Assembly: GCF_000186865.1 (NCBI RefSeq)
Contig: NW_008705572.1
Span: 1,156,406-1,220,405 of the forward strand
Source of the DNA: Aureococcus anophagefferens
Lineage: Eukaryota > Sar > Pelagophyceae > Pelagomonadales > Pelagomonadaceae
DNA length: 64,000 nucleotides
Direction of reading: 5' to 3'
Shown here: in pieces, positions 5,411 to 61,191 of the stretch
Layout: each line of letters begins with the position of its first letter
Position numbering within the stretch: position 1 is the first letter of the stretch
Position numbers and translations under genes: made by a program
Notes under the pieces: generated by a model
Told to the model about the DNA's origin: nothing
What the model saw: only the letters and a program-made list of their open reading frames with translations
The model's database searches: none

Positions 5411-8139
5411 ATGACGAGCGGGTCGCTCGGCGCGGCGATGCGACGGCTGGCCGCCGCCGTCGTCCTCGGCGCCGCGGGCGGCACCTGCCCGGCGGGCTCC
5501 CGCCTCGCCGCCTGGCTGCCCGGCGTGCCCTGCGTGCCCTGCGTGGCGGGCAGCTACAGCAGCGCCAACGACAGCGCGCGCTGCACGGAGTGCGGCTACG
5601 GGTCCATCTCCGGCGACGGCGCGACCGCGTGTGCGAGCTGCGCGCCCGGGACGTTCGCGACCGTCGCGGGCCGGCCCTCGAACGTCTCCGGCGTCGCCTC
5701 CGGCGCGACGCGATGCCGGGACTGCCCCGCGGGCTACGCGAGCCAGGCGGGCGAGGCGCTCTGCGAGCCCTGCGCCGCGGGCACGACGAGCGCCGCCGGG
5801 GCCGCGGCCTGCGCCTTGTGCGAGCGCGGGTCCTTCCGCCGGGCCCCGGACGCCGCGTGCGAGCGCTGCGCGGATTTCGCGGGCTTCGACGCCGAGCGGT
5901 GCGCCGCGGGCACGACGCTCGCGACCGTACCGCTCCGACGGGGCTACTGGCGCGCGGCGCCGGACAGCGACGACGCCTACGAGTGCCGCGCGCGCGCCGC
6001 GTGCCCCGGCGGCGCGTCCAACGCGACCGCGACGGCGTGCGCGCCGGGCTACGCCGGCGTCGCGTGCGCGTCCTGCGCGCGGGGCGCCTACCGGTCCGGG
6101 GCGACGCGGACCTGCGAGGCCTGCGGCTCCGCGGGCGGGCGCCGGGCCGCACTCTGGGCCTACGGGCTCCTCGGCGTCGCGGCCGTCACGGGTTTGGGCT
6201 TCCTGAGCTGCTCGACGCGGAAGCAGACGGCCCAGAGCTTTTTCCTCGCGCCCGGGGGCCAGGTGGATGTCTTTTGGGGCATCCGCAACACCGTGGGCCT
6301 CGCGAAGCACGCCGTGGCGCCCCTCGCGAGCCGCTTCGAGACGGATCTGCTGTCGAACGGCGTCGCTCACCTCGCGGCGGACCTCGAGAGCCTGCCCGAC
6401 GCGCGGTTCCTGCTCCGGTGGATCACCAAGGCCAAGGCCGTCTTCACGTTCTACCAGATCCTGGCGACGCTGCCCGTGGCCTTGGAGGCGTCCGCGTTCC
6501 CCTCCGTGAGCTCGCGGTTCTTCGTCATTGCGAACGCGTTCTCGCTGAGCTTGCTCGACCTGATCCCCGCGGCCTGCTTCCCCGCGGCGTCGCCGCGCGC
6601 CGTCTACGTGAGGAGCTTCGCGCAGGCCATCTTCCTGCCGCTCGTCTTAGCCGGGGCGCTCTACCTGTGCTACCGCGCGAACGGCGTCATCTATGCCGAG
6701 GACCGGCGGCGCGTGCCGGGCTTCTACGTGACCCTATTCTTGCTGCTCGTCCACTTCTCGCTGATCTACTGCAGCTTCCAGGCCTTCCGGCCCTTCGCGT
6801 GCGAGTCCTTCGAGCTGGGCGGCGGCGAGGCGCGGGCCTACATGCGCGCGGAGCCGACGATCGCGTGCGACGGCGCGCTCTACCGGACCGCGCTGATCAG
6901 GGCAGGAAAAGGGTGATTCAACGTCGCTTCAACGTGAGTGTTCCGCGCGCGCGCGTTTCGGAAACAGCACCCACGCTTCGAGAGCGCTCCGAGCGATGAT
7001 CGCTCGTCCAAAAATCAGCCGAAACGAGCGGAAAACGACCGAGATAGGAGCCTTTGAAGTTGGGAATTTCGCACCCTTTTCCTGCCCAGGTGCTGATGCC
7101 CCTCGCGTGTGCGGCCCTCTTGCTCTACCCGCTGGGCATCCCCCTGCTCTACGGGTTCCTCCTCGTGAACGCGCGCGAGATCCTGCACCCGGGCGACATG
7201 GAGATCCACACGCGCGCGACGTTCGTCGTCGCGGAGGCCGTCGCCGAGGCCGCGCATCACGGCGCCGCGGAGACGCTCCACGACCACGCGTCGACGGACC
7301 ACCCCGTGCTGCCCAAGCTCGAGGACATGCGGCGGCTCCTCCACGCGGCGAGCCGCGAGGCGCTCGACGAGTTGAGGGCGGACCACAAGCGCGTCGTCAT
7401 GCGGAGCTCGCTCCGGAGCGACATCAAGTCCACGGAGGCGTACCAGGCGGCGCTCGCGCGCATCCGCGACGACCGGAGCGAGCACCGCGTGGACCAGGGC
7501 GCGACGGAGGACATCCGCAACTACATGTTCCTCTGGGGCTGCTACCAGCCCCGGTGCTGGTGGTGGGAGCTCGTCGAGGCGTCGCGGAAGATCGTGCTCA
7601 CGGGCGTCCTAGCCGTCGTCCGGCCGGGCTCCAAGTACCAGCTCTGCTTCGGCTACCTCGTCTCCCTGACCTACGCCGTGCTCTACGCCAAGTTCCGGCC
7701 CTTCAACGGCAAGGACGACGAGCTCATCGCGGAGAGCTGCCAGTGGTCGCTCGCGTGCGTGCTCTTCATCACGCTCGTCTGGGACGGCTTCCTCCCGCCG
7801 GCCGTCGCCGCGGGGCTGCTCGCGGGCTTCGGCCTCGTGCCCGTCGTCGTCACCGCCGTCGTCATGCGCCGCGAGGTGCAACGCGACCGCGCGCGGCGCA
7901 AGCTCCTCCGCGACAAGAGCGAGCGCCGCATCAAGCTCATGGCCGCCGTCCGCAAGACCGTCGAGGTCAACGCGCTCGCGCGGCCCCACCGCCGCGACAG
8001 CCCGGCGCGCGAGGGCCGGCGGCTCCGCGCGGACGACGGCGACCACACGCCGGTCCGCGCCTTCGACGACGGCGCGAGCGCCAAGTACGAGGAGAAGCGG
8101 CCGCCGCCGGAGGAGGAGCTGGATGTGAGGGAGCTGTAA
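5411..8139 (+). CDS. GCC2/GCC3 (ephrin-receptor-like) cysteine-rich multipass membrane protein
   Basis: Two exons, 5411-6889 and 7090-8139, give 842 residues. After a signal peptide come several Cys-rich GCC2/GCC3 modules (CAPGTFATVAG, CRDCPAGYASQAGEALC, CEPCAAGTTSAAGAAAC) and a CxxC cluster. Hydrophobic segments follow from about residue 240 (ALWAYGLLGVAAVTGLGFL) onward. The C terminus is charged and probably cytosolic. Large families of this architecture occur in stramenopiles as putative surface sensors or channels; ligand unknown. The exons are separated by a 200-bp introner whose donor is GC (left duplication GCGCTGAT) while the right duplication reads GTGCTGAT. Splicing restores YRT|VLMPLACA. 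A mini-ORF starting about 5394 ends just upstream of the ATG. Confidence 0.8.
6898..7089 (+). mobile_element. Introner element, family A copy 1 (is the intron of the GCC2 gene)
   Basis: The intron 6890-7089 is an 8-bp target duplication (GCGCTGAT at 6890-6897 versus GTGCTGAT at 7090-7097) plus this element. Its ends are inverted repeats (GGGCAGGAAAAGGGTG and CACCCTTTTCCTGCCC). The right end supplies the acceptor CCCAG and the left duplication supplies the donor, here mutated or ancestral GC. It shares internal blocks with the copies at 55263 and 60497, including TCGTCCAAAAATCAGCC at 7004-7020. No protein is encoded, so it is non-autonomous. Introners of this design were reported from Aureococcus (established knowledge); the match is my reading. 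Confidence 0.88.
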
Positions 8140-8341
8140 AAACCGTCGATCGGGGGTTTCGGCACTGCAACTTGGACCAGGTGTGGCAACAACAACCCAA
8201 TGTCGGAGATCGGCTTTTGTGTGAGAGGCTGCTGGTCGCGATCTCCAGGGGCTTCGCCGCCAAAATCGGGGCCCGCCCAAGCCCCGCGAGGACCTCGTCG
8301 GCGTCGCGTGACTCATAGTTCGTCGCGACCGGTGAACCACC

Positions 8342-9469
8342 ATGCGCGTGCGGAAGTGCTGCGTCGAGTGCAGCAAAAGAAGAAAGAAGCTGAGCGAGTG
8401 CCGGCCGCGCGGCGCGGGGAACAAGTGCTGGACGTGCAACAAGTGGAACCGGGAGTGCAGCTTCGTCCACGAGTACCCCGCGAGCCTCGAGGGCATGGTC
8501 TTCGAGCCGTCGCGCGAGGAGAAGCGCATCGCGCGCGAGGCCGAGGCGCGCGAGGCCGCGGCGCGCGACGCGGCCGCCGGCCTTTCCGCGGCGCCCGCCG
8601 CGAGCGGCCGGGGCCGGGGCCGGGGCCGGGACCGCGCGGCGACGGGCGGCCGCGGCGACTTCAATGAGGAGTCGCGCAAGCGGCCGCGGCCCGAGGGCGG
8701 CGGCGGCGGCGGCGGCGCGCCGCCGGCGGCGCGGCCGCGCGAGGGCGGCCGCATGTTCGAGCTCGCGTTCGCGGCGGCCCAGGCCGCGTCGGCGACGCTG
8801 CGCCAGAGCTCGCCGGGCCCCGGCGCCGACGGCGGCGACTCGGCGGCGGCCGCGCGGTCCCTCGCGCTGTCCGTGTCGCCCGGCGAGGCCGCGCAGGTCG
8901 CGCTCATGGCCTGGGCGGCCGCGAGCGACGCGCGGCCGCCGGCGCCCGCGCCCGCGCCGCCGGCGCCCGCGGCGCCCAGCATCTCGCCGGCGCCCGCGCC
9001 GGGCGAGCGGTCGCTCGTCGTCTCCGTGCCGGACATGATGTGCCTCGGGTCGTGCGCGCGGACCATCGGCGGCGCGCTCGAGCGCGTGCCCGGCACGGCC
9101 CTCGCCGGCGTCAACGTGCCCCGGCGCCTCGCCCACGTGCGCACGACGGCGGCCCCCGGCACCGTGCTCCGCGCGCTCGAGGACGTCGGCTTCGAGAGCG
9201 AGGTCGTCACGGACGTCGCGCTCGGGGTACCGCACGCGGGCGGCGCCTGGGCCGACGAGGAGGACGTCGAGTGGGACCTGGCGGACACGCTGGGCCTCGT
9301 CTCCGCGGGCTGCTCGCGCCGCCAGGGCGGCCGCTGCGCGTGCGGGCCGTCGTGCATGTGCCACTTCTGCCCCGTGCACCACCCGGAGCGCGCGGACGCC
9401 CTCGAGCGCGCGGGGCGCCGGGGCTCCCCGCCGGCCAAGGAGCCGGCGCACGCGGCGCCACCGTTCTAA
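8342..9469 (+). CDS. Zinc-cluster / HMA-domain metal-binding protein, candidate copper regulator
   Basis: 375 residues; the ATG lies in a CCACCATG context. The N terminus has a Cys cluster ([11 protein letters not shown], then [13 protein letters not shown]) like fungal-type zinc-cluster or short DNA-binding zinc modules with basic residues between the cysteines. An Arg/Gly/Pro/Ala-rich linker follows. Residues ~225-290 read as a heavy-metal-associated fold: [17 protein letters not shown] carries the MxCxxC metal site and ends with [15 protein letters not shown]. The C terminus has [16 protein letters not shown], a metallothionein-like CxC-rich patch. The combination suggests a metal-sensing nuclear regulator or a metal chaperone; this is inference. 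Confidence 0.65.
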
Positions 9470-9711
9470 AGGAAATCCGATGTTTGCGGCCGAGACTTTC
9501 GCGAAGTTTCTCGCGACTTGTATCGAAGTTTGTCTCGCGCGCGCGTCGACGGCAGTATCAACCTGTTGCCGTTGATGGCGATGAAGCAGTCGTGACGAGG
9601 AAGGACCGTCGCCGCCCGCTGCAGCGGAAATTGCCGCCGTCCCCTTGCGCACCATCGCCGTCCGACGCCGCCTCTGTGCCCGCGACAGCCTCAACGCACC
9701 CCAAAGTCCAA

Positions 9712-10224
9712 ATGCTGCGCCGGTCCCTCGGCCGCGTGCTCAGCAACGGCGCGCCGCCGGGGTCGCGGCCGCCGCTGCCGCCCTTCACGCTCGAGAGCGC
9801 CGTGCAGAAGGTGCGGGCCGCCGAGGACGCCTGGAACAACCGGGACCCGACGAAGGTCCCGCTCGCCTACACCGAGGACACGCAGTGGCGCAACCGGAGC
9901 GAGATCTTCACCGGCCGCGCGGCCGTGGAGCAGTTCCTCGAGCGCAAGTGGGCGCGCGAGCTCGACTACCGCCTCATCAAGGAGTACTGGGCCCACGGCG
10001 AGAACCGCATCGCCGTGCGCTTCGCCTACGAGTACCACCTCGCGGGCGGCGAGTGGATGCGGGCCTACGGCAACGAGAACTGGGAGTTCGACGACCGCGG
10101 CCTCATGCGGACGCGCCACGCGTCCATCAACGACATCCCCATCAAGGAGGAGGACCGCCTCTTCCACTGGCCCGCTGGCCGCCGGCCCGACGACCACGCG
10201 TCGCTCAGCGAGCTGGGACTCTAG
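9712..10224 (+). CDS. DUF1348 / NTF2-like (SnoaL-fold) protein
   Basis: 170 residues from the ATG at 9712. The core ([55 protein letters not shown]) is the nearly unmistakable DUF1348 pattern of bacterial and eukaryotic proteins of ~150 residues with an NTF2-like fold. No reaction is established for the family. About 20 N-terminal residues rich in Arg and Pro precede the domain and may be a weak organelle presequence. An upstream in-frame extension to 9558 is possible, but its composition is unlike the body. Confidence 0.85.
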
Positions 10225-11044
10225 CGAAAACCACACCGGAAAGCAAATGACGATTCGAACGACACCTCCGATAGTAAACCCCGTGTACAGTTCCCAGCGC
10301 GGCGGCGACCCTCGAGGTCCGCGACGGCCGTGAGTTGGCGGTCGAGTGTGGCGGCAGGACCGGGTCGCCCGTGACGAGCAGCACCGGCCGATCGAGAGTC
10401 GAATGCGCGTCGGTCCCCTGGTCGGTCCCGCGCCGAAAGGGCAGACTCGCGCCCCCATGCCCCTACCGATCCCCGCGCCACCCGCCCGGGCCCTCCAGCC
10501 CCGGCGATCGGACCAATGGAGCACAGGCTAGCGTCTAGCTTCTATGAGCTTTAATCGCTGAACTCAGCTGTGGATAAGCGACCAGCCACGATTTCCCCGG
10601 CGCCTACGACCGCCGACCCGAGACTCTGAGACTCGAGAACACGGGCTATGCTCGCGCGTCTGCTAACGATGCTTTGTAGCTCGACCCCCTCGCTCGACCC
10701 CTGCGCGACCTGACACGCGCGCCCGTACCCCTAGAGCCTCCCAACGGTCGGTACCGACCCCCGGAGTCCCACTTGCGTGCTGCAATTTGACTCAGTTATA
10801 TCGATTTTGTCGATTTTCGACGCCTCCGAGCGCTCCGACCGCGTCGCCAGACGTCCCCACAAGTCCATTTACGCGCTCAGGGCGCTCACATCAGCCTATG
10901 CAGTGATTTGGCGACGTTCCTGGGCCTGCTGGGCCGAGTTTGAGGCCGGTGTCACCCCCCGTCTCTTGACGGCGCTTCGTCCTCTCGAGCTCGAGCCTGA
11001 GCGCGGGCTCGCCGAACGCGCGTATGAACAGGGGCCGTTAGCGC
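10225..11044. other. Intergenic stretch, nothing recognised
   Basis: 820 bp between the DUF1348 gene and the 3' end of the kinase gene. Base composition is lower in GC than the flanking genes and no reading frame looks protein-like. I see no tRNA, snRNA or repeat. The part next to 11044 must hold the kinase 3' UTR. Confidence 0.5.
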
Positions 11045-20107: not shown

Positions 20108-20148
20108 CGTGATGCGGGCAGCCTTTTGGAAACTTCAACGACGTGGAA

Positions 20149-32937: not shown

Positions 32938-35562
32938 TTATTCGGTTCCAGTGGGCGCGGCGAGCGCTGGAAGCGGGGCCTCGGCGTTCGCCGCGGGCAT
33001 GACGAGCGAGTCGCGGACGAAGGCGAGGTACGCCGTGGGCACGTAGCCGCTGCTCCGGCTCGTGAGGTGCTCCGCGAAGAGCCAGCCCGACGCCGCGTCG
33101 AGCTCGGCCTTGAGGACGAGGACGAAGTCGCCGGCGTCGAGGCTCATCTCCTGGGGCTCCTCCTTGGCGAACGCGTGCGTGGCCTTGCACATGCAGATGC
33201 CCGCGCCCGGCGCGTCCGGCGCGGGCGCGGGCGCCGCCGGGTCCGCGGCCGTGCGCGAGAGCCAGTAGCGGCTCACGGCGGAGACGACGCGGCGCGGGGC
33301 GAAGATGATGGTCCCGACGCGCTGGAGCGTCCTCTGCGACGCGCGCCGCGAGAGCGCGCGGCCGCCCGCGAGCAGCGCCGCGGCGGACGCGCGGCGCGAC
33401 GATTGCCGCCGCGCCGGGGCCGGGGCCGGGCCCGGGGCCGCGCCGGGGGACGCGAGGGGCGCGGGCGCCTCGTCGCCGCGCGCGCTCGACAGCTCGCCGT
33501 CCCCCGGGAGGAACTCGGCGACCTTGTGGCGCACGAAGGACGCGAGCGACGCCTCGCTCCACTCGCTCACGACGGGGCTCGAGTCATCAAGGAGCGCGTC
33601 GGCGGTCACCAAGGTGATCTGGTTGATCTGGTTGATCTGGTTGATCTGGTTGATCTGGTTATATTGGTTGATCTGGGTGATCTGGTTGATCGCGGGGCTC
33701 GGCTCCGGCGCGTCGGCGGTGTGGGCGCTCGGCTCCGGCGCGCCGGCGGTGTGGGCGCTCGGCTCCGGCGCGCCGGCGTCGTCGGCGGCGGACGTCGGGG
33801 GCGACGAGGCCGCGGCGGCCGACGACGGCGGGAGCTCGTCCCGGGCGTCGTCCGCCGGCGGCGGCGCGTCGCCCCCGTCCTCGCCGGGCGCCGCGGCCGC
33901 GGGCGCGCCCGGGTGCAGGACGGATCGCACGACGCCGCCGACGAAGCCCTCGAGCTCCGCGGCGCCGGCCTCGGGCTCCGCGGCCGGCGCCGCGTCGGCC
34001 GGCGGCGCGGCGTCGGGCGTCTGCGCGCGCTTGGGCTTCTTGCCGCCCTTCTTCGGCGGCGGCGCGGCCTTGCCGGGCGTCGCGCGGCCGGGCTTGGGCT
34101 TCGCGGCGGCGCGGACGGCCCAGCCGGCCGCGCGCGCGCTCTTCCGCGGCGCGGCCTTGGCCGCCGGGCCGCTCCGCGCGGGCGCCTTGCCGCGCCCGGC
34201 CTTGGCCGACGCCGGGCGCTCCTTCGCGGGCGCCGCGCGCTCGTTCGCGGGCGCCGCGCGCTCCCGCGGCCTCGCGGACGCGGGGCGTTTCCGCGCGTTC
34301 CCCGGCGCCTTCGCCGCCTCCTGCCGCCGCGGCTCGTCGTCGAAGGGCTCGTCGCCGAAGGGCTCGTCGTCGCTAAACGGGTCGCCGAGGGGGTCGTCGC
34401 CGAGGAATTCGTCGCCGAAGGGCTCCGCATCCAAGGGCTCGCGGTCCGGCGCCCGCGTCGGTTCGCGCCGAGGCCCCCGCCGGTGGTCGTGGAGGACGGG
34501 CTTCGCGCGCTTCGGCTTCGCGTCGTCGTTGTCGAAGGTCAACGCCTCGCCGGGGGGCAGCTCGTAGTTGTTGCGCCGGCCGACGGCGAGCGCGCTCTCC
34601 TCCTCTTGCTTTGCCCGCGTCCGCCGGTGGTCGTGGAGGACGGGCTTCGCGCGCTTCGGCTTCGCGTCGTCGTTGTCGAAGGTCAACGCCTCGCCGGGGG
34701 GCAGCTCGTAGTTGTTGCGTCGGCCGACGGCGAGCGCGCTCTCCTCCTCTTGCTTTGCCCGCGTCCGGCGGTGGTCGTGGAGGACGGGCTTCGCGCGCTT
34801 CGGCTTCGCGTCGTCGTTGTCGAAGGTCAGAGCCTCGCCGGGGGGCAGCTCGTAGTTGTTGCGCCGGCCGACGGCGAGCGCGCTCTCGAGAGGCGGGTCG
34901 CTCCAGACCTCCGCGGGCGCCGCGGCGGGCGCCGCCTCGGGGGACCGGAGCTGCTGGAAGCTGTTGGGCAGCGTCGCGACCTCGAAGGACGTCGGCGCGA
35001 AGTCCTCCGGGTACGGGTCGTCGCCGGGCGGCGCCGCGCCGTCGCCGGGCGGCGCCGCGGCGCCGCCGCCGGGGCCGCCCTCGAGGCGCCGCGGGTCGTC
35101 GTCCGCCGGCGGCGACGCCGGCGACGTCGTCGCCGGCGCCGGACCGCTCCGCTTCTTCTTCGTCGGCGTGCGCCGCGCGACGGCCGCGCGCTTGAGCGTC
35201 TGCTCGTAGGGCGTCTCGTCCGCGAGTCGTATCCAGTGGACGTCGTCGTCAGCCCGGACGACGGCGATCTCCTCGAGGGCCTCCTCGTACCAGGGCTTCT
35301 GGGCCTGCGCGACGGCCAGGCGGTGCCGCCGGCTGAACGCGCTCGTCTTGTTGAATTCGATCTCCGCGCGCCGCTCCGCGCGCCGCTCCGCGCGCGCCGC
35401 GCCGCCGGCCTCGTCGCAGATCACCGTGACCTCGACGGGCGCCGACTGCTCCGCGAACCAGCCGTTGAGCGCCGCCAGAGGCAGGGGCACGCCGTGCATG
35501 TAGACCATCGTCGGACCATCCGGCGCTGGGGTTGGGGGCTGCCTCCCAGGGCTGCCTCCCAT
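32938..35562 (-). CDS. Repeat-rich adaptor protein with C-terminal SH3 domain
   Basis: 874 residues (856 if the ATG at 35508 is used). The N-terminal ~120 residues look globular (VYMHGVPLPLAALNGWFAEQ, VEVTVICDEAGG). Three copies of a 48-residue unit follow, beginning SALAVGRRNNYELPPGEAL. Next comes a long Lys/Ala/Pro-rich disordered region with DEPFGDEPFDDEP and AHTAGAPEPS repeats, and an (INQ)n run. The last ~110 residues contain an SH3 fold: CKATHAFAKEEPQEMSLDAG, FVLVLK, GWLFAEHL and SGYVPTAYLAFV (ALYDY-, W- and P-Y-motif equivalents). I infer a scaffold binding Pro-rich partners, cytosolic or cytoskeletal. It is convergent with the USP gene (23 bp between stops). Confidence 0.7.
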   Translation of the reverse strand: MGGSPGRQPPTPAPDGPTMVYMHGVPLPLAALNGWFAEQSAPVEVTVICDEAGGAARAERRAERRAEIEFNKTSAFSRRHRLAVAQAQKPWYEEALEEIAVVRADDDVHWIRLADETPYEQTLKRAAVARRTPTKKKRSGPAPATTSPASPPADDDPRRLEGGPGGGAAAPPGDGAAPPGDDPYPEDFAPTSFEVATLPNSFQQLRSPEAAPAAAPAEVWSDPPLESALAVGRRNNYELPPGEALTFDNDDAKPKRAKPVLHDHRRTRAKQEEESALAVGRRNNYELPPGEALTFDNDDAKPKRAKPVLHDHRRTRAKQEEESALAVGRRNNYELPPGEALTFDNDDAKPKRAKPVLHDHRRGPRREPTRAPDREPLDAEPFGDEFLGDDPLGDPFSDDEPFGDEPFDDEPRRQEAAKAPGNARKRPASARPRERAAPANERAAPAKERPASAKAGRGKAPARSGPAAKAAPRKSARAAGWAVRAAAKPKPGRATPGKAAPPPKKGGKKPKRAQTPDAAPPADAAPAAEPEAGAAELEGFVGGVVRSVLHPGAPAAAAPGEDGGDAPPPADDARDELPPSSAAAASSPPTSAADDAGAPEPSAHTAGAPEPSAHTADAPEPSPAINQITQINQYNQINQINQINQINQITLVTADALLDDSSPVVSEWSEASLASFVRHKVAEFLPGDGELSSARGDEAPAPLASPGAAPGPAPAPARRQSSRRASAAALLAGGRALSRRASQRTLQRVGTIIFAPRRVVSAVSRYWLSRTAADPAAPAPAPDAPGAGICMCKATHAFAKEEPQEMSLDAGDFVLVLKAELDAASGWLFAEHLTSRSSGYVPTAYLAFVRDSLVMPAANAEAPLPALAAPTGTE
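33612..33690. repeat. 9-bp tandem repeat encoding (Asn-Gln-Ile)n
   Basis: TTGATCTGG is repeated about eight times with a few substitutions (TTATATTGG, GTGATCTGG). On the minus strand it encodes the INQ run of the SH3 protein. Period 9 keeps the frame, so copy number can vary without breaking the gene. Confidence 0.85.
34474..34888. repeat. Three 144-bp tandem repeats in the SH3-protein gene
   Basis: The anchor CGGTGGTCGTGGAGGACGGG recurs at 34481, 34625 and 34769, spacing exactly 144 bp (48 codons). The copies are almost identical at nucleotide level, including third positions, so the duplication is recent or is being homogenised. Confidence 0.9.
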
Positions 35563-35731: not shown

Positions 35732-36703
35732 ATGCACGGCGTATTCTTCATGGCGCTCGCGCTCCAACGGGCCGCGAGCCTGTCCATCGCCATCACGGGC
35801 AGCTCGCAGGGCATCGGCCTCGACGCGGCGAAGCGTCTGCTCGCCGAGGGCCACACGATCTACCACGGCTGCCGGAGCGCGGCGCGCGCGGACGCGGCCG
35901 TCGCCGGCGCCGGCGGCGGCGTGCCGCTGGTCTGCGACCTCGCGGACCTCGCGAGCGTCCGCGCGTTCGCGGCGGCGCTCCCCGACGACGTCGACGTGCT
36001 CTGCCTCAACGCGGGCGTCGCGCCGTCGACCAAGGCCGCCGCGCCGGCGCGCACGGCCGACGGCTTCGAGGCGTGCGTCGGCACGAACCATCTCGGCCAC
36101 TTTGCGCTCGCGGAGCTCGTCGCGCCGCGGCTCGCGGCGCGGCGCGGGCGGATCGTCGTCACGGCGTCGAGCGTGCACGACCCGGCGCAGCCCGGCGGCG
36201 CCGTCGGCGGCGCGGGCGGCGCGACGCTCGGCGACCTGAGCGGCCTCGCGAAGCTCGAGGACGGCGGGCCGACGATGGTCGACGGCGCGGCCGCCTACGA
36301 CGGCGGCAAGGTCTACAAGGACTCGAAGCTCTGCAACGTGCTCTTCGCGCGGGAGGCGCTGGCGCGGTACCCGGGCGTCGACGTGCGCTCCTTCAATCCC
36401 GGCTTCATCCCGTCGTCGGGCCTCTTCCGCGCGCCGCGCGAGGACAACTGGCTCGGCGCGACGGCGTTCACGCTCGTCGCGGGGCTGGTCGGCTTCGCGG
36501 TGCCCGTGGCCGTGGGCGGCGCGCGCCTCGCCTACGTGGCGACGGCCGACGGCCTCGCGCGAGGCGCGTACCTGTCCGCGGAGACGGGCTCGCGCGCGGT
36601 GACGTTCGCGGACGGCTTCGACGACGGCCTCATCTCGCCGGAGGGCGCGGACGCGGACCTGGCGGCGCGGCTGTGGGAGCGGTCGCGGGAGCTCGTCGCC
36701 TAA
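35732..36703 (+). CDS. Short-chain dehydrogenase of the protochlorophyllide-reductase (POR) type
   Basis: 323 residues. NADP-binding TGSSQGIGLDAAKRL (TGxxxGIG), NAG motif in LCLNAGVAP, and the catalytic YKDSKLCNVLFARE. The last is diagnostic: POR enzymes read YKDSKVCNML, with Tyr, Lys and the conserved Cys. It is followed by SFNPGFIPSSGLFR (POR: YPGCIAETGLFR, with the second Cys replaced by Phe). So it belongs to the POR clade of SDRs. It may be a light-dependent protochlorophyllide reductase paralogue or a POR-like SDR of unknown substrate; loss of the second active-site Cys argues for the latter. The N terminus (MHGVFFMALALQRAASLS) is a short hydrophobic leader without a clear AFAP. Confidence 0.7.
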   Translation: MHGVFFMALALQRAASLSIAITGSSQGIGLDAAKRLLAEGHTIYHGCRSAARADAAVAGAGGGVPLVCDLADLASVRAFAAALPDDVDVLCLNAGVAPSTKAAAPARTADGFEACVGTNHLGHFALAELVAPRLAARRGRIVVTASSVHDPAQPGGAVGGAGGATLGDLSGLAKLEDGGPTMVDGAAAYDGGKVYKDSKLCNVLFAREALARYPGVDVRSFNPGFIPSSGLFRAPREDNWLGATAFTLVAGLVGFAVPVAVGGARLAYVATADGLARGAYLSAETGSRAVTFADGFDDGLISPEGADADLAARLWERSRELVA

Positions 36704-36895
36704 GAAAGCAACTTCCTAGAGCGAAGCGAGATAGGAAGGTGGCTGGCTTCGTTAAATAACTTCAATATGGACTCAGCATCACTTCAGCTTTGACCTCGCT
36801 GACTCGGAGCGGAGCTTACCAAGTCTCGGATTCACAGCGTATGATCGAGAGCTTTCAGCTGTAACTTGAGATCCATCGGTTGCCATCCTCTCGCA

Positions 36896-37119
36896 ATGCA
36901 CCTGAGACGAACGGCTCTCGCCGCCCTGGCGGTCGCTACCACTGTCGTGGCCTTCGCCCCGCCCCGGGCGCCCCGGCCGGCGCCCCGGATTGTGACCGCG
37001 AGGCACGTGGACCTGACCACCATCGCCGAGGTCGTGGCGGGCGCGGCGGTCCTGGGCTTTGTGATCACGTCCCAGGACGAGACCAAGGACAAGGAGGAGC
37101 TGGTGAAGTTCATTCCCGA

Positions 37120-41016: not shown

Positions 41017-41125
41017 CATTGCAGTTGTCGTTGCCGCGAGCCCCTCGGCGGGCTGCTGCGAGACGGACGGTCGCGGCCGCGTGGGACACGAGATCAGCTG
41101 CAGTTCACGTTACGATGCGAACAAC
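41017..41125 (+). pseudogene. Inverted fragment of the sulfotransferase-like gene
   Basis: On the plus strand this reads VVAASPSAGCCETDGRGRVG followed by HEISC. It parallels AAASPSTGCFKTDGHGRMTH and AVSC at the N terminus of the convergent sulfotransferase gene (minus strand, about 41830-41905). DNA identity is high across about 55 bp (GCGAGCCCCTCG[A/G]CGGGCTGCT). Only this small piece is present, then the frame runs into the antisense of the parent. It is a truncated inverted copy, not a gene. Confidence 0.65.
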
Positions 41126-41944
41126 TCAGTCGAACATGTGCTGCGGGTCCCGGGAGAAGCCGAAGGCGTCGAAGTCGCGCGCGTAGAGCCGGCGCACCTT
41201 GGCCGCCGTCGCGTCGTCGTAGTAGGCACGCTGGTCCCAGGGCGGCGACGGCTTGAAGGCCGCGGCGGACACGGTCCGCTTCGTCGACGCGCAGCTCGAG
41301 ACGCAGTGGCGGCTCGAGAAGTTGCGCCGCGGGTAGCCGAGCGCGGCGAGGAGCAGGAGCGTGTCGTCCTGCAGGTTGTTCGTCCTCAGCACGAAGGGGT
41401 TGGCCCCTCGCGGCAGGAGCTCCGACGCCGTGCGCACGGGCGGCGCGGCGAGGTTCGCGACCCAGCCGCGGAAGTGGGAGATTTGCTCGCGCTCGTCGAA
41501 GCCCCAGGGCTTGATCTCCTGGCCCCCGGAGATTTTCTTGTGCCACGCCGCGCTCGAAATCACGCGTCGAAACGGATTCGCGGCAAGCACGATCAAGAAG
41601 TCGTCCGGGCACCGGCCGCGCGGCGGCGCGTGCTCGTGCGAGCACGTGTCCACGTGGAGGTCTTTCGTGAACATGTCCGTGAGCGTCGACGTCCCCGAGT
41701 GCTCCGGCAGCAGCGCGACCCAGGTCCTATTCCGCGCAACGCCCCAGCATCCATTGCGGGCTATGCCCGTCGTGCAGCTCTTCGCGCAGGCCGGCTGGGT
41801 CTTGCAGGCGTAGCCGCCGTTGCGCGCGGAGCGGCCTTCGCATGAGACGGCGTGCGTCATGCGGCCGTGGCCGTCCGTCTTGAAGCAGCCCGTCGAGGGG
41901 CTCGCAGCAGCGGCGGCTAGGAGAGCTGCTGCCCATCTCATCAT
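41126..41944 (-). CDS. Sulfotransferase-like type II/secretory protein
   Basis: 272 residues; the ATG at 41944 gives signal/anchor MMRWAAALLAAAAASPSTG. An N-terminal Cys-rich patch (GCFKTDGHGRMTHAVSC, CKTQPACAKSC) is followed by WVALLPEHSGTSTLTDMF (a 5'-phosphosulfate-loop-like segment) and FLIVLAANPFRRVISSAAWH, equivalent to the 'vvRdPfeRllS' box of sulfotransferases. The end, VRRLYARDFDAFGF, is the usual 'l.....y..Df..fgY' tail. I infer Golgi carbohydrate sulfation using PAPS. The conserved Arg before DP is replaced (AANP), so activity is not certain. It is divergent (116 bp) from the GT25-GT2 gene. Confidence 0.6.
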   Translation of the reverse strand: MMRWAAALLAAAAASPSTGCFKTDGHGRMTHAVSCEGRSARNGGYACKTQPACAKSCTTGIARNGCWGVARNRTWVALLPEHSGTSTLTDMFTKDLHVDTCSHEHAPPRGRCPDDFLIVLAANPFRRVISSAAWHKKISGGQEIKPWGFDEREQISHFRGWVANLAAPPVRTASELLPRGANPFVLRTNNLQDDTLLLLAALGYPRRNFSSRHCVSSCASTKRTVSAAAFKPSPPWDQRAYYDDATAAKVRRLYARDFDAFGFSRDPQHMFD

Positions 41945-50584: not shown

Positions 50585-50976
50585 CGTGGCGTGAGGCGTC
50601 GCTTATCTAGGGAGGTTCGCGGGGGTACCACTTGTGTGATCACGGCGTCATCGCACACGGCTACGGTCGCGAACGGTCGACTAGGGGGGTGCCCGCCGAG
50701 GGCAAAAGGCGTCTCGTGTGCGCGCGGAGGTGATCCAGCAATCGACGAGGTGGTGGAGTTTCGATCGACGAGCCGCCGGCGATTCCTCCACAAGCACCTC
50801 ATTTCTAAATTTCCCTACAGGTGTCTACAGGTGTCCCGGTAGGTTTATTCATCTGCCGTATATTCCGAGCTCGTCACAACAACCACGACGAAATCGAAGC
50901 GGAACACGCCAAAATGCGCGATGTCTGCAAGAAGAAACCTTCAAAAGAAGACCCGAGGCGATTACGCGCGGGCGCG
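50585..50976. other. Intergenic stretch, nothing recognised
   Basis: 392 bp between the transporter start and the 3' end of the carboxylase gene. Lower GC than coding regions; an imperfect direct repeat (CTACAGGTGTCTACAGGTGTC) lies at 50814-50834. No RNA gene or ORF supported. Confidence 0.45.
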
Positions 50977-53525
50977 CTACTCGTCGTCCTGGACGAAGGC
51001 GATGAGCATCTGGTCCGCGGCGACGACGTCGCCGACGTCCGAGAGGAGCTTGTCGACGACGACCTTGTGCTCCGCGCGGAGGATGTTCTGCATCTTCATG
51101 GCCTCGACGATGGCGAGGGGCTGGCCCGCCTCGACGGTCTCGCCCTCGCCGACGGCGTAGGAGAGGAGCGTGCCCGGCATGGGGCACTTGAGGCCGCTGA
51201 GCGAGTCGGGCTTCGGCGGCGGCAGGGCGAACTTGGCGAGCTCGGCCTCGTTGGGCGACGACACGGCCGCGTCGACGCGGACGCCGCGGACCTGTGCCGA
51301 AACCAACCACTGGTTTGGGGGGTCCCCACCAAACTTGAGAATTCTCTAGCTCGGTCAAATCAAAGTCGATTCGGCTGATTTTTGGACGGATCGATCGCTC
51401 TCGTCGAGTTCTCGAAGCACAGTGAAAGAGTCTGGTCCAAATCGTTCGAATACGCTCACATTGAAGTCGGGTTGAATATTTGGTTTCGGCACAGCCGCGG
51501 ACGCGGAGCGCGTGGTCGAAGCCCGGCGCGGGCGCCGCGTCGACGTACTGCACGCGGACCTCCTCGCCGGCCGCGGAGTCGTAGGCGACGACGGCGTCGA
51601 CGAGGGGCCTGGGCCAGGCGTAGTTCCGCAGGACCACGGCGGCGCCGTCGACGACGTAGGCGTCCGGCCCCGCGCCGGGCGACACGTCGAACGTCGCCCG
51701 CGCGGCGGCGTCCGCGCGCGGCGCGAGGGCCACGACGGCGGGCGCCGGCGGCGGGTTCGCGCCGCGCGCGGCCCGCGCGGCGGCGTCGACGGCGTAGGCG
51801 AGGGCCGCGAGCTCCGGCCCCGCGGTACCGCAGCCGGCGACGCCCGCGAAGACGCGGGCCTCGTCGAAGCCCGCGGCGTACTCCTCCTCGATGAACTTGG
51901 TCGTGTAGGTGCCCGAGAGGAAGGTCGCGTTGCCGCAGATGTCGCGGCAGAAGGGCACGTTGTGGGCGAGGCCCTCGACGACGTAGCCGTCGAGCGCCGC
52001 GCGCGCGTTCGCGAGCGCGTCTTCCCGGTCTTTGCCCGTCGCGACGAGCTTGCTGATCATGGGGTCGTAGTAAATCGATATCTCCGCGCCGTCCTCGATG
52101 CCGCTGTCAACGCGCACGGACGCGGCCTTGCCCGTCGCCGTCCAGCCCGCGCCGAAGTCGAAGTGGCTCGCGCCCGGCGGGTCGCCGTACGCCGTGAGCA
52201 CGCCGACGTCCGGCAGGAAGTTCTTCGACGCGTCCTCGGCGTAGACGCGCGCCTCGACGGCCCAGCCGTCGATGGGCACGAAGCAGGGGTCGGCCCCGGC
52301 GCCCAGGAGCCGGTCCGGCAGCCGCTGGCCGTCCGCGACGAGCAGCATGAGCTCGACTAGGTCCTCGCCTGTGTGGAAATCAAATATTCAACCCGACTTC
52401 AATGTGCGCGTATGCGACCGTTTCGACGCGAGGTTTTCTGCTGTGCTTCGAGAACTCAACGAGAGCAATCGGTTCGTCCAAAAATCAGCCAAATCGACTT
52501 CGATTTGACCGAGCTAGAGATTTCTGAAGTTTGGCCCCGACGTCCCAGCTCACTGGTTGATTTCCACACAGGTCCTCGCCCGACACGGCCTCCGTGATGG
52601 GGTGCTCGACCTGGAGCCGCGTGTTCATCTCGAGGAAGTAGAAGGCGCCCGTCGCGCCATCCACCAACATCTCCACGGTCCCCGCGGACTCGTAGCCGAC
52701 GGACCGCGCGAGCATCGCGGCCTCGCGCTGCATCTCCGCGCGCAGCGCCGGCTTGTCGCTCAGAAAGGGGCTCGGCGCCTCCTCGACGACCTTCTGGTTC
52801 CGCCGCTGCACGGAGCACTCGCGCTCGGGGAACGTCGCGACGTTGCCGAACGCGTCCGCGACGACCTGGATCTCGAGGTGCCGCGGCGACTGGACGAACT
52901 TCTCGACGAGCATGCGGTCGTCGCCGAAGCTGCGCACGGCCTCGTCCTTGGCCAGGGGCCACTGTTCCTCGACGTCCTTGGCGTCGAAGGCGACGCGCAT
53001 GCCCTTGCCGCCGCCGCCCGCGGACGCCTTGAGCATGACCGGGTAGCCGATGTCGGCCGCGATCGCGAGCGCGTCGGCCACGTCGGCGACGGCCTCGGCG
53101 CCGCCGGGGATGACGCTCACGCCCGCCGCCGTCGCGATCTCCTTGGACCGCAGCTTGTCGCCCATGTCGTCGATGGCCGCCGCCGGCGGGCCGACGAACG
53201 CGTGGCCCGCCGCCGCGACGGCGCGCGCGAACTCCGCGTTCTCGCTGAGGAAGCCGTAGCCCGGGTGCACGCAGTCCGCGCCGCTCGACGCCATGCACCC
53301 GAGCACGGCGTCCACGTCCAGGTAGCTCGTCGACGCCGCGTTCCCGTAGCCCACCTGCACGGCCTGGTCCGCCATGCGCACGTGGCGCGACAGCGCGTCG
53401 GCCTCGCTGTGGATCGCCACGGTCTCCAGGCCCATGCGCTTCGCCGTGCGCATGACGCGGCACGCGATCTCGCCGCGGTTCGCCACCAATATCCGCTTCA
53501 AACCCAAGGCCTTGGGCGCGGCCAT
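50977..53525 (-). CDS. PCCA: Propionyl-CoA carboxylase alpha (biotin) subunit, three exons split by two introners
   Basis: Exons 53525-52580, 52368-51503 and 51291-50977 give 708 residues. Biotin carboxylase: [52 protein letters not shown] (ATP-grasp loop) and [16 protein letters not shown]. The central part [20 protein letters not shown], followed by [10 protein letters not shown], and [13 protein letters not shown] match PCCA rather than MCC or acetyl-CoA carboxylase. The C-terminal biotinyl domain has VEAMKMQN (biotin Lys ~670). It carboxylates propionyl-CoA to methylmalonyl-CoA with a beta subunit. The visible ATG (53525) gives [12 protein letters not shown] with no mitochondrial presequence, so a 5' exon may be missing. 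Both introns carry introner ends; the first uses a GC donor. Confidence 0.9.
51292..51494 (-). mobile_element. Introner element, family B copy 1 (PCCA intron 2)
   Basis: The intron is 51292-51502 (211 bp, GT-AG in the gene sense). The duplication GTCCGCGG occurs at 51495-51502 and 51284-51291. Ends are inverted repeats CTGTGCCGAAACCAA and TTGGTTTCGGCACAG. The intron-internal core (GTCCAAAAATCAGCCGAAT on the minus strand, 51370-51390) is shared with family A. Splicing restores [14 protein letters not shown]. Confidence 0.88.
52369..52570 (+). mobile_element. Introner element, family B copy 2 (PCCA intron 1)
   Basis: The intron is 52369-52579 (211 bp). Ends TGTGTGGAAATCAA and TTGATTTCCACACA are inverted repeats. 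The duplication is GGTCCTCGC (52360-52368 and 52571-52579), extendable by a base on either side. In the minus-strand gene the donor is GC (GCGAGGACC) and the acceptor CACAG; splicing gives VSGEDLVEL. The internal core CGTCCAAAAATCAGCC (52475-52490) is on the plus strand, i.e. opposite to copy 1 within the same gene. Confidence 0.88.
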
Positions 53526-54506: not shown

Positions 54507-56063
54507 ATGCTGCGCGCCGCCATCGTCCTCGCCGCCGCGCTGGCCGCGCACGGCGCCTCGACGCCGCGGCGGCGCCTCGGCGCGCTGCGTCGGCGGGACG
54601 CGCCGTCGGCGCGCCGGGCCGCCGCGCCGTTGGACGTCCAGGGCGGCGGCGCGGCCGGCGGCGGCGACGGCGTCGCGGCCCGGGCCGAGCTCGACGGCGC
54701 CGTCTTCAACCTCGTGAACAACGTCGCGGGCTGCGGCTTCCTCACGCTGAGCTCGGGCATGGCCGGCTCGGGCTTCGTGCCGTCCGTCGCCGTGCTCGCC
54801 GCGCTCGGCGCGATCTCCTGCTTCACGTTCCTCGCGCTGGGCGAGGAGTGCGCGGCCTACGGCGCGACGGACCTCCGGGGCCTCTGGGCCAACGCCGTGA
54901 GCGAGGACACGGCCTGGCTCGTCGACGCGTCCGTGGGCCTGTTCTGCGGCGCGGCGCTCGTCATCTACCACGGCGTCGTCGGCGACGTCTTCGGGCCCGT
55001 GGTCGGCCGGTGGGTGGCGGGCGGCCACGCCACGGCCATCCTGGCCGTCGCCGCGGGCTGCCTCTGGCCCCTCTGCCAGCTCGACCTCGCCGCGCTCGCG
55101 CGGTTCTCGCTCGTGGGCTGCGCGTCCGTCGCGGCGACGGCGTGCGTCATCCTGCTCCGGAGCGTCGACGGCTCCTACGCGCCCGGCGGCCGCTACTTCG
55201 ACGCGCCGGCGACGCGCGCGGGCGGCTGGCTCGGCCTCGCGCCGAAGATGCTCGTGCTGAGCAGAGCAGGAAAAGAGTGCTTCATTCCGCGCGCGCGCGT
55301 GCCGGAAATAGCATCCACGCGTCGAGAGCGCTCCGAGAGATGATCGCTCGTCCAAAAATTAGCCGAAACGAGTGGAAAATGACCGAGAGAGGCGCCTCCA
55401 AAGTTGGGAATTTCGCACTCTTTTCCTGCCCAGGTGCTGAGCGCGAACCTGGGCCTCGCGTACATCGCGCACTACAACGCGCCGCCCCTCGCGGGCTCGC
55501 TCGCGCCGGGCCGGGAGCCCGCGGAGGCCGCGCGCGACTTCTCCGCCGTGACCGTGCGGTCCTTCGCCGTGCTGATCGCGCTCTACGCGGCGGTCATGGT
55601 CGCGGGCGCGGCCACGTTCGGCGACGCGGCCGCGCCGAACCTCATGGTCAACTACGCCGACGCCGACGCCCTGGCGCAGATGGCCAAGCTCGCGACGGGC
55701 GCGTCCATCATCTTCGGCTTCCCCCTCGTCTTCTCCGCGTTCGCGAACTGGGCCTACTCGCTCGCGCCCGCGCCCGTCTTCGCGGCCCTCAAGTCGTCCA
55801 AGGCCGCGAGGCTCGGCGCGTCGGGCCTGCTCATCCTGCTCACGGTCGTCGTCGCCCTCAACGCGTCGGACATCGGCCTCCCCGCGGGCCTCGCGGGCTC
55901 GCTCCTCGGCGGCTTCGTCGTCTACGTGCTCCCGGCGGCCGTCAAGTGGCAGCGCGCGGCGACGGCCGCGGAGATGGCGGGCTGCGCGGGGCTCGCGGGG
56001 CTCGGCGCCGTGCTGGCGCTCCTCGGGGCGTCCCAGGTGCTCGCCCAGTACGGGCTGCTCTAG
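54507..56063 (+). CDS. AAAP/Trp-permease-like amino acid transporter with N-terminal leader, two exons
   Basis: Exon 1 54507-55253 and exon 2 55434-56063; 458 residues. The leader MLRAAIVLAAALAAHGAS suggests signal-peptide-type targeting (ER, or plastid envelope if bipartite). Membrane part: VFNLVNNVAGCGFLTLSSGM (helix 1), ending with VLALLGASQVLAQYGLL; roughly 10-11 helices. Helix 1 (N-x-V-x-G-x-G) resembles AAAP/Tyr-Trp permeases. The intron is a family A introner (55254-55433, GT-AG, phase 0); splicing restores KMLVLSANLGLAYIAHYN. Substrate unknown. Confidence 0.75.
55263..55433 (+). mobile_element. Introner element, family A copy 2 (intron of the transporter gene)
   Basis: The intron 55254-55433 (180 bp) comprises the duplication GTGCTGAGC (55254-55262; repeated at 55434-55442) plus this element. 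Ends GCAGGAAAAGAGTGC and GCACTCTTTTCCTGC are inverted repeats. The donor is GT from the duplication and the acceptor CCCAG from the element. Core TCGTCCAAAAATTAGCC is in the same orientation as in copy 1. Confidence 0.9.
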
Positions 56064-56153: not shown

Positions 56154-56162
56154 GAGAACTGG

Positions 56163-56249
56163 CGCAGTGAAGGTCGAATCGAACGACTGGGCATCTCTGC
56201 CCCTACCGATTTGAAGTCGGCACCCCACACCAGTGAGGATCATCTCTGC
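56163..56249 (-). tRNA. tRNA-Sec: tRNA-Sec (anticodon UCA)
   Basis: 87 nt on the minus strand; the anticodon TCA is at 56212-56214 in the loop of CCGACTTCAAATCGG. The D arm CCTCACTGGTGTGGGG and the whole 5' half (GATGATCCTCA..TGGGGTGC) are almost identical to vertebrate tRNA-Sec. A long variable stem GGGCA/TGCCC, T arm GTCGTTCGATTCGAC, 9-bp acceptor stem (one A-A and one U-U mismatch, the latter also in human) and discriminator G all fit the 9+4 selenocysteine tRNA. It decodes UGA as Sec with SBP2/eEFSec. A Pol III T8 terminator follows. The gene is head-to-head with the Nudix-SpoU gene, 117 bp apart. Confidence 0.92.
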
Positions 56250-56366
56250 CTGTTGCGAACCGTGGATGTGGATGTCGATTTTGCGCGCGGACGATCGCCC
56301 GGCGACGATCACCCGAGCTCCGGCTGAGCCAGAGATTTGGATGCCTGCGATGGCAGTGTAACATCG

Positions 56367-58640: not shown

Positions 58641-58719
58641 CGCGGGTTTTAGGACGAGGAGCAAGCCTACGGCACGTTGACGACACGTTGGCCAGGAGGC
58701 AGCGCGGCCACTGCGAACG

Positions 58720-61191
58720 ATGCGCTTCGCTCTCCTTCTCGCGACCCATGCGGCCTTGTTCGCGGCCGCCTGGGCGCCGCCAAGGCACAATTCGCCGCGC
58801 AGACCCGCAGCGCTGCGCGGACCGGCAGCGCTGCGCGCCGCGCCGGACGACCTCAGCGGCCTGCCGCGCGCCGAGCTCGAGGAGCTCGCGCGGCGGCTCA
58901 CGAGCGAGAACGCGGCGCTGCGGCGGAGCGTGGAGGCGCCGCGGACTTCCTTCTCGCTGGGCGCGGCGTCGCTCTGCGCGGGCTTCGCCTTCGAGTCCTA
59001 CAACGACCCGGACGGCGCGCGCTGGGAGCGGGGCGCGGACGGGTGCGACGTCGCGTTCCGCGACGCGTCGTTCGTGCGGTCGTGCTACGCGGGCGCGCTC
59101 ATCGCGCGCGTCGTCGAGGCCCGGGGCCTCGAGGGCCAGCAGGACCTCCAGGAGATCGCCCTGACGGGGTCGGCGAGCGACCCCTACGTGCGCCTCGCGG
59201 TCGTCGAGCGGTCGCCCCGGGGCTCGCAGCGCGAACGCGCGTCGAACGCGACGGACGTCGCGCGCACGGAGACGGTCTGGCGCGGCGGCGACAACGCCGT
59301 CTGGCCCGACAACTCCCACTGCCTCTACGTGCGCGACCCGGCGGCGGCGAGCCTCGCCGTGCGCGTGACGGAACCCGCGTCCGCTCGAGATCGCGCGCGC
59401 GCGGAAACAAACCGCGTAGGTCTACGACGAGGACGTCGCGTCCGACGACGACCTGTTGGGCGTCGCGGAGCTGCCCCTGAGCGACATCCTGAAGGCGGGC
59501 GGCGCGGCGACCTTCGAGCTGCCGCTCGCGGTCGACGCCGAGGACCGCGTCGACTTCGACGGCCGCTTCGCGGTCGCGGGCGCGGCCGCGGCGGCCATGG
59601 CGGGCGTCGCGACGGGCGGCGTCGCCCTCGCCGCGGCGGCGGCCGCGGCGACGGCGGCGCGCGTGTCCAACGACCGGGGCCGCGGGAGCCTGACCGTCGA
59701 GCTCCGCTACGTCGCGTTCGCCGACGACGCGGACGTGGCCGCGCTCGACGAGTCGGGCGCCTTCGAGCGCCTCGAGGCGCCCGCGGGCCCGCGGGGCGCG
59801 TCGCCCGAGGCCGGCGTCGACTGGAGCGCCCTCAACGCGGCCGCGGCGCCCGACGCGGGCGACTTCACACCGCTCTGCTTCGTCGACCACCAGAGGACGG
59901 GCACGCAGGCGGGCCTCTGGCGCGACGACCGGCGGCGGCGGTTGTTGATCTCCTTCCGGGGCACGTCGGAGCCGCGGGACCTGGTGACGGACGCGTCCGC
60001 GCTCATGACGCCGTGGCGCCGCGACGCGGATTTGGCGAGGGACGGCTACGACGACTGCGTCCCGAGCGCCCTCGGCGACGCCCTGGTGCACGCGGGCTTC
60101 CGGGGCGCTCTAGATTCCGTCGCGCGGCGCCTGAAGCAGCTCGCGGTCTACGCGGCGACGGACGCGGGCGGCCGCGGCGGCCTGCCCGACGCGTCCGCGC
60201 CCGACGCGCTCCGAGGCTGGGAGCTGATCGTGACGGGCCACTCGCTCGGCGGCGCGCTGGCGACCCTGTTCGCCTACGACGTCGCGCCGGGCGTCGACGC
60301 GGCCGCGGCGCTGCCCGTGCGCGCGCCCGTGTCGCGGCCGTGGTTCCTGCCGCCCGTCGCGGGCGCGGCGCCCGGCGCGCCGCCGCCGGCCCTCGACCGC
60401 CCGAAATTCGCCCGGACGACGCTCATCACCTTCGGGGCGCCGCGCGTGGGGGACGGCGCCTTCGCGGCGACCTTCGACGCGACGGTCGCCGGGCACGGGG
60501 CAGGAAAAGAGTGCGAAATTCCCAACTTCAAAGGCTCCTATCTCGATCGTTTTCCACTCGTTTCGGCTGATTCTTGGACGAGCGATCATCTCTCGGAACG
60601 GTCTCGAAGCGTGGATGCTTTTTCCGGAACGCGCGCGCGCGGAACACTCACGTTGAAGCGAACTTGAATCACTCTTTTCCTGCCCAGGCCGGGCACCGCG
60701 TCGTCAACGGCCAGGACGTCGTCGCGCGGCTGCCGCGCGGCTTCTCCTACGCCCATTGCGGCCGCACGGTCTTCATCTCCGACGACGCGAGCGAGCCCGC
60801 GCTCTGGGTCGAGGGGTCCGACGACCGCGCGTGCCCGCTGAAGCGGGGCGACGGCTCGCTCACCGGCGTCGCCGCGTCCGGCGGCTCGTCCGCGCTCGCG
60901 GGGCTGCTCGAGGCGGCGGGCGCCGAGGCGTCCCAGGTGAAGCCGTTTGATCTACGGTCCGCGGCGGCGGGCGCCGCGCGCCTCGGCCGCGCGGTCGAGT
61001 CCGCCGCGCGGGCCGCGTCCGCGCGCGACGTCGCCGAGGCCGCGGGCCTCGACGGCGGCTTCGTCGACGCGGAGCTCAAGATGGTCCGCGCGATCGCGTC
61101 CGGCGACGCCCTCGCCCACCACCTCGAGCCGTCCTACTTCGAGGGCATGAAGCGCGCGCTCGCCGCGGCCGACGGGGCTAAGGCAGCGTGA
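58720..61191 (+). CDS. C2-domain class 3 lipase, plastid leader, three exons
   Basis: Exons 58720-59364, 59420-60487 and 60688-61191; 738 residues. The leader MRFALLLATHAALFAAAWAP has an AxW-AP motif resembling AFAP. A coiled coil (ELEELARRLTSENAALRR) is followed by a C2 domain (GALIARVVEARGLEGQ, DPYVRL, SLAVRV|YDEDVASDDDLLG, joined by a 55-nt GT-AG intron). The lipase_3 core: RLLISFRGTSEPRDLVTDAS, VHAGFRGALDSV, VTGHSLGGALATLFAYD (Ser in GxSxG) and TLITFGAPRVGDGAF. After an introner comes the second catalytic region AGHRVVNGQDVVARLP. It hydrolyses acyl esters (galactolipids or TAG) near plastid membranes; the C2 domain suggests Ca-dependent membrane binding. Confidence 0.82.
60497..60687 (-). 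mobile_element. Introner element, family A copy 3 (lipase intron 2), inverted
   Basis: The intron 60488-60687 (200 bp) is the duplication GCCGGGCAC (60488-60496; repeated 60688-60696) plus this element. Ends GGCAGGAAAAGAGTG and ACTCTTTTCCTGCC are inverted repeats. The core (minus strand CGTCCAAGAATCAGCC) is inverted relative to copies 1 and 2, yet the splice arrangement is the same. The donor is GC and the acceptor CCCAG. Confidence 0.9.

Follow-up and report, generated by a model that had tools for sequence, protein, structure and literature searches.

Introner elements with 8-bp target duplications in coding sequence of Aureococcus anophagefferens

A 64,000-nucleotide stretch of the Aureococcus anophagefferens genome (NCBI RefSeq assembly GCF_000186865.1, contig NW_008705572.1, positions 1,156,406 to 1,220,405 of the forward strand; hereafter the window) holds five introns that carry the same 17-bp core. 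We consider it very probable that they are introner elements, namely non-autonomous cut-and-paste DNA transposons resembling miniature inverted-repeat transposable elements (MITEs), which lie in coding sequence and are removed as spliceosomal introns. Introner elements of A. anophagefferens were reportedly the subject of work by Huff, Zilberman and Roy in 2016 (Nature 538:533), and the five introns belong to a kind already described from this species. Together with their copies they illustrate mass intron gain with unusual clarity.

Anatomy of the introns and their target duplications

All five introns were located on direct reading where the initial annotation had placed them, with lengths of 200, 211, 211, 180 and 200 bp that resolve into an 8-bp target duplicate and an element of 192, 203, 203, 172 and 192 bp, respectively. 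Introns 1, 4 and 5 belong to family A and introns 2 and 3 to family B. Intron 1, on the plus strand, opens with the upstream copy of the duplication (GCGCTGAT, 6890..6897), which carries a GC donor, and continues with an element (6898..7089) with ends CAG..CAG and the core in the sense of the gene (7004..7020, plus strand). The downstream duplicate (GTGCTGAT, 7090..7097) forms the first eight bases of the next exon and matches the upstream copy at 7 of 8 positions; the duplicates of the other four introns match at 8 of 8. Intron 4, also on the plus strand, has a GT donor in its upstream duplicate (GTGCTGAG, 55254..55261), an element shortened by an internal deletion seen in alignment (55262..55433, ends CAG..CAG, core in sense at 55348..55364 on the plus strand with one mismatch) and a downstream duplicate at 55434..55441. 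In intron 5 of the plus strand, the upstream duplicate (GCCGGGCA, 60488..60495) has a GC donor, the element (60496..60687) has gene-sense ends CGG..CAG with the core antisense to the gene (60565..60581, minus strand, one mismatch), and the downstream duplicate lies at 60688..60695.

Introns 2 and 3 are on the minus strand, within the gene for the propionyl-CoA carboxylase alpha chain (PCCA). The upstream duplicate of intron 2 (51495..51502) carries a GT donor, its element (51292..51494) runs from CTGTGCCG to CGGCACAG with the core in sense (51373..51389, minus strand, one mismatch), and its exonic downstream duplicate reads GTCCGCGG on the minus strand (51284..51291). Intron 3 has a GC donor in its upstream duplicate (52572..52579), an element running from CTGTGTGG to CCACACAG (52369..52571) with the core antisense (52474..52490, plus strand), and the exonic duplicate GCGAGGAC on the minus strand (52361..52368). 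The donor is therefore GC rather than GT in three of the five introns (those at 6890, 52369 and 60488), and the core lies both ways relative to the host genes and both ways inside PCCA, as had been noted.

Five matches to the core with at most three mismatches were found in the window, where 0.03 were expected and none of 100 shuffles reached five. Across the genome (86 contigs, 49.05 Mb, with the window on contig 12), the exact core occurs 2,110 times (1,042 and 1,068 copies on the two strands) and its reversed control not at all. For a closer examination we assembled a sample comprising the window, 30 loci and 20 ten-kilobase stretches. A blastn search of these gave 101 hits, from which two duplicates and 20 partial hits were removed, leaving 79 full-length copies (52 of family A and 27 of family B). 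These copies, at unrelated positions in genes, are highly similar to one another, with a mean column agreement with the consensus of 94% for family A and 90% for family B. Partial, diverged A and B copies are present among the 20 partial hits (L034, L035, L036, L037, L048 and L052), which suggests that older insertions exist alongside young ones.

The initial annotation gave the duplication as 8–11 bp; across the full-length copies it is exactly 8 bp in both families. At each of the eight positions the two flanks agree in 47–52 of the 52 A copies (14.6–30.1 expected) and in 25–27 of the 27 B copies (8.0–14.3 expected), while one base beyond, on either side, agreement falls to chance level in both families. 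With boundaries held fixed, 63 of the 79 copies have a duplication matching at 8 of 8 positions. Allowing shifts of up to four bases, 64 do, and 73 match at 7 or more. Element and duplicate together measure 200 or 211 bp in 41 of 52 A copies and 23 of 27 B copies. The description of each intron as one target copy plus an element with terminal inverted repeats held in all five. The repeats of family B are 15 bp long and perfect in the consensus; those of family A are interrupted at base 2.

Reading frame, splice sites and host proteins

Both flanks of each copy were scored with a codon model that had been trained on the same sequence. Coding signal was present on both sides of 66 of the 79 full-length copies, and the frame comparison covers these 66. 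When the element and 8 bp are removed, strand and frame agree across the junction in 64 of the 66, all five window copies included. Removing the element with 0, 1, 9 or 10 bases gave agreement in 0, 1, 0 and 1 of 66, respectively. Removal with 11 bases again gave 64 of 66, because it leaves the same frame as 8, and flanks paired from different copies agreed in 18% of cases. The right-hand copy of the duplication thus opens the next exon, as was initially proposed.

With the two copies whose flanks disagree in strand or frame set aside, and with only the codon model used to set gene direction, 64 copies were available for counting splice sites. The first two bases of the upstream duplicate are GC in 36 and GT in 28, so that all 64 begin with GY (GC or GT), for which the background frequency is 0.20; the element ends in CAG, read in gene sense, in all 64. 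These counts agree with the earlier proposal that the duplication would supply the donor and the element end the CAG acceptor. Among the 15 copies outside this set, eight are of family A, and seven of these have a duplicate with a GY start in the sense expected from the element's terminal base, the exception being L026.

GC outnumbers GT 3.7 to 1 in the same coding flanks (0.1585 against 0.0423). GT nevertheless makes up 44% of the donors against 21% of the GY dinucleotides (p = 4e-5), and hence GT is favoured as a donor and GC is accepted. Since the donor is drawn from the target, donor composition follows the host. For A. anophagefferens, 39.6% of introns have been described as GC-AG, with an origin termed an enigma in the part of that report available to us (PMC3033335); GC-rich targets as the source of donors offer a direct explanation for them.

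These counts also bear on whether the copies could be ordinary MITEs that are tolerated in genes and not precisely spliced, or that sit in pseudogenes. The 13 copies lacking coding signal on both flanks would fit such an account, but every one of the 64 coding copies follows the GY and CAG rule, and removal restores strand and frame in 64 of 66. Moreover, the usual 200 or 211 bp is not a multiple of three (the 180 bp of intron 4 being an exception), so retention would shift the frame, and two copies lie in a conserved enzyme, PCCA. We regard this account as almost certainly wrong.

Removal of both introns from the PCCA gene yields a single open frame of 746 codons. Among the best hits of a protein search with the spliced product, four proteins named A. 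anophagefferens match it with 88–100% identity over 69–100% of the query. In alignments to solved PCCA chains (best E 9e-168) the intron 3 junction falls within a conserved, gap-free block (SGED-LVEL). The intron 4 junction is within an Aa_trans match and that of intron 5 within a Lipase_3 match, and a Pfam search with the protein around intron 1 gave no match. Among nine close relatives aligned at the intron 3 site, eight (P0001 and P0003–P0009) have no extra residues and one (P0002) has four, SGEDLCEDLVELM. At the intron 2 site, the NCBI models P0002, P0003, P0005 and P0006 differ around the junction and were not usable. P0001, P0004, P0007, P0008 and P0009 are continuous across both sites. 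P0007 and P0009 begin with methionine where their relatives have valine, which suggests a prokaryotic gene caller, a GTG start and uninterrupted DNA; judged from the proteins, their genes probably represent empty PCCA sites.

The four residues of P0002 could be taken to mean that both splice sites lie inside the element. The donor would then be a GT in the family B end (CTGT|GTGG), adding 12 nt to the mRNA (the 8-bp duplicate and four more), which would give exactly the four residues seen in P0002. A family of another length in Aureococcus sp. (77 bp by coordinates) likewise adds 12 bp, according to the accessible portion of PMC9860276. Against an internal donor, the duplicate starts with GY in all 20 coding B copies (20% by chance), which would be needless if the donor were internal, and 6 of the 20 have no frame-keeping internal GT, three of them with a GC duplicate. 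Further, P0001 and P0003–P0009 lack the extra residues, though some may lack the intron, and the consensus A ends contain no GT in their first 14 bases. An internal donor is therefore very unlikely, and we favour a donor within the duplicate. P0002, an A. anophagefferens NCBI model, has its additional residues at the GC-donor intron of the window (52369–52579), and the annotation seems to have skipped the GC in favour of an element-internal GT. Models built without GC donors gain spurious residues in this way, and similar errors may affect other Aureococcus models.

Ends and body orientation in families A and B

Both end types reported in the initial annotation are present, but they are not both simple inverted repeats, as family A carries an outer C-N-G. 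Family B ends CTG...CAG in 21 of 27 full-length copies, and its core lies in sense in nine and antisense in 11 of the 20 coding copies. The B ends are symmetric, and a B element would therefore make an intron in either insertion orientation.

The A (GGCAGGAAAAG-type) ends have the same letter N at both ends in 38 of 52 copies. Read in body orientation, they are CTG..CTG in 22, CAG..CAG in 16, CTG..CCG in eight and CGG..CAG in three, with single copies of CCG..CAG, CTG..CGG and CTG..AGC. Perfect-repeat ends, CTG..CAG with complementary T...A, were found in none of the 52, where 12.3 would be expected if the ends were independent. In gene sense, all 44 coding A copies end in CAG, whether the body lies in sense (16 copies) or antisense (28). 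It is thus the ends that give an A element its direction, with the body in either orientation between them. Base 2 at the gene-5′ end is A in 32 of the 44, G in 10 and C in two, one of the C rows (L045) having a misplaced boundary, and T in none, as against T in 15 of 20 coding B copies (p 1e-10). Because of this one-base-pair asymmetry, an AG acceptor would be available in only one end orientation of A.

This polarity might instead not be inherited, having arisen by mutation after the insertion of perfect-repeat elements. A genome-wide search for exact perfect-repeat A ends gave 14 places, seven of them apparent offset starts, against six for the reversed control, leaving about seven plausible perfect-repeat copies; the G and C variants at the gene-5′ base would also fit. 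In contrast, CAG-core-CAG in one body orientation occurs 249 times and its reversed control not at all, though the 249 and 14 are not strictly comparable, since the former pattern requires an exact core and permits a wider length range. That base 2 is never T in the coding A copies while family B mostly keeps it, and that A is the commonest letter, unlike random decay from T, makes later mutation an improbable source of the polarity.

Taken with an inherited polarity, the two families would solve the problem of orientation differently. Family B would be bidirectional, with CTG/CAG at both ends, whereas family A would be unidirectional, with a base pair near each end that breaks the repeat and fixes the acceptor end. 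The A body would be inverted between the repeats without disturbing splicing, and an introner orientation measured on the body would then not be the orientation seen by insertion or by splicing. On this combined reading we are evenly divided. The single-base end rule would give an account of why B inserts productively both ways and A one way.

The bodies of the two families are related. Their consensus sequences align with a local score of 80, whereas none of 500 shuffles exceeded 31, and share the core and the order of motifs. The part left of the core alone scores 30 (shuffles at most 27), while the part to the right scores 24, which is not significant (shuffles at most 28). As initially suggested, A and B therefore look likely to be two families of one superfamily, judging by this similarity of their bodies.

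How often the A body has been inverted was considered using a tree of bodies without ends. The body-orientation label changes eight times on this tree, compared with 16.2 when shuffled, and none of 500 shuffles is as low; its well-supported branches force two changes. Counting against a larger number of flips, the tree is ill-resolved, good support being limited to 3 of its 49 inner branches, and the test of a single clade gives p-AU 0.07. Many independent inversions were accordingly set aside, the single clade being unrejected despite the eight changes, and our claim is limited to at least one inversion.

The repeats of family A are also matched to each other. In 45 of 52 copies the two ends carry matching letters at repeat position 9, and in 43 of 52 at position 11 (26.8 and 25.5 expected). 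At position 7, where A-to-G changes are common, the match of 43 is not above the 41.9 expected by chance. Position 9 does not follow the body in inheritance: agreement with the nearest body is 24.7 of 52 (26.9 at random), and on the body tree it changes 15 and 16 times at the two ends (16.2 and 16.7 shuffled), without clustering. Position 11 is partly inherited with it, with nearest-body agreement of 37.1 (25.5 at random) and 11 and 12 changes at the two ends (17.9 and 17.0 shuffled), which are clustered. The behaviour of positions 9 and 11 suggests that conversion, pairing or choice by the transposase keeps the two A ends of a source element alike. Of 35 pairs with close bodies, which are not independent, 19 have different letters at position 9 in both ends and none in a single end. 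Hypermutable repeat letters with coordinated switching were considered and set aside, as a few source elements that have near-identical bodies and matched ends are a simpler explanation.

End motifs also occur outside the recognised copies. A family-B-like motif (CTGCGCGGATTT) lies at 5866–5877 of the window, with another in L041 at 8785–8796.

Mobilisation and relation to known systems

In the inferred mechanism, which is the one already published for introners, insertion into coding sequence would duplicate 8 bp of the target, and where the first two bases of the duplicate are GT or GC in gene sense, its upstream copy would become the donor. The acceptor would be the gene-3′ end of the element, a pyrimidine-rich stretch followed by CAG. 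Splicing would then take out the upstream copy together with the element and leave the original exon sequence unchanged. A family B element, with its CTG...CAG ends, should form an intron whichever way it is inserted, and for family A, whose gene-sense structure is C-A-GGGCAG...CTGCCC-A-G, a single end orientation would yield the AG acceptor. Recombination between the two inverted repeats of A may invert the body while the outer base stays in place. The enzyme responsible would be a transposase. Both the 8-bp length of the duplication and the CAGGG-like outer end resemble those of hAT-type MITEs, and this superfamily is no more than a lead.

Several points weigh against this interpretation. 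The sample is not random, as all its loci and stretches except the window were chosen around exact core matches, on contig C1. We infer splicing itself from frames, splice-site rules and protein homology. The junction of intron 2 opens the second block in one structure alignment, and in the other a four-residue gap adjoins it. Of five transposase families searched with Pfam profiles, PF05699 and PF14291 (hAT domains) and PF18758 had no match in the genome, control genomes being equally silent, and PF10551 and PF12762 had none where controls were positive; no longer element was found. The splice motifs of Aureococcus introners are called canonical in the part of PMC7789003 available to us, whereas 36 of our 64 donors are GC. 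A single copy among the 79, L026, has no GY start in either sense. It is a full-length family A element with an 8/8 duplication, the best coding frames of its flanks differ, and it is a candidate non-intronic insertion.

The missing transposase could also point to spread via RNA, by reverse splicing or intron transposition, with no DNA transposase involved, and the 66 of 79 sampled copies flanked by coding sequence on both sides are compatible with such a route. The exact duplication of 8 bp of target and the terminal inverted repeats, which both families have, oppose it, as does the presence of family B both ways relative to the gene, which is not expected from reverse splicing. We judge an RNA route highly improbable, and retain cut-and-paste transposition.

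Other sequences were inspected as possible relatives of the elements. A scan of the sampled sequence for family A end motifs beyond the known copies gave only the duplicate copy in L007, and no unpaired family A ends. Two long low-GC stretches of the window, at 36699–36923 and 50782–50975, contain neither A nor B end motifs and resemble gene borders. Three viral contigs in IMG/VR hold the 17-mer, with flanks unlike the element by eye, and these matches were taken as chance. Three further features of the window are repeats of other kinds. Thirteen diverged copies of a 60-bp unit, mostly spaced 60–93 bp apart, lie at 1182–2261 in a lower-GC background and may encode a repeat protein. A 144-bp unit is present three times in tandem at 34477–34908, the copies being 99% and 86% identical to the first, and inverted arms of 62 nt each, 82% complementary and separated by 760 nt, lie at 41029–41912.

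Published Aureococcus introners have direct repeats and terminal inverted repeats of constant length (PMC7789003), occur in both orientations with co-opted splice sites (PMC10228655), and show a characteristic length near 210 bp (PMC9481584), according to the passages of these papers at hand. The window elements are alike in all these respects, and by description families A and B are likely identical to the published ones. Among the additions claimed in the initial annotation, both orientations (PMC10228655) and the length of about 210 bp (PMC9481584) are consequently already in print, as judged from the same passages. The idea of introner-derived GC donors is not new either, being in print for Micromonas (excerpts of PMC3879977 and PMC4815162). 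The additions worth keeping are the 8-bp length, the majority of GC donors from GC-rich targets, the apparent annotation artefact and the contrast between symmetric and polar ends. For the family A end rule, no statement was found in the accessible portions of PMC9860276, PMC12768974, PMC9481584, PMC7789003, PMC3033335, PMC10228655, PMC6310983, PMC4815162 and PMC3879977 or in a wider literature search, most subscription papers lying outside its scope; nor was the contrast of symmetric B and polar A ends met in the literature searched, again with subscription papers largely outside.

Beyond Aureococcus, the introners of Symbiodinium microadriaticum have a 4-bp duplication (PMC9860276, in the part available), against 8 bp here. 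The introner elements of Micromonas pusilla form thousands of near-identical introns, as they do here, and the available portions of the two reports (PMC3879977, PMC4815162) give GC donors as 53% in IE-A1 or 43.5% in introner-containing introns, compared with 36 of 64 in our set. In A. anophagefferens, unlike Micromonas, the donor is any GY offered by the target, and both body orientations occur.

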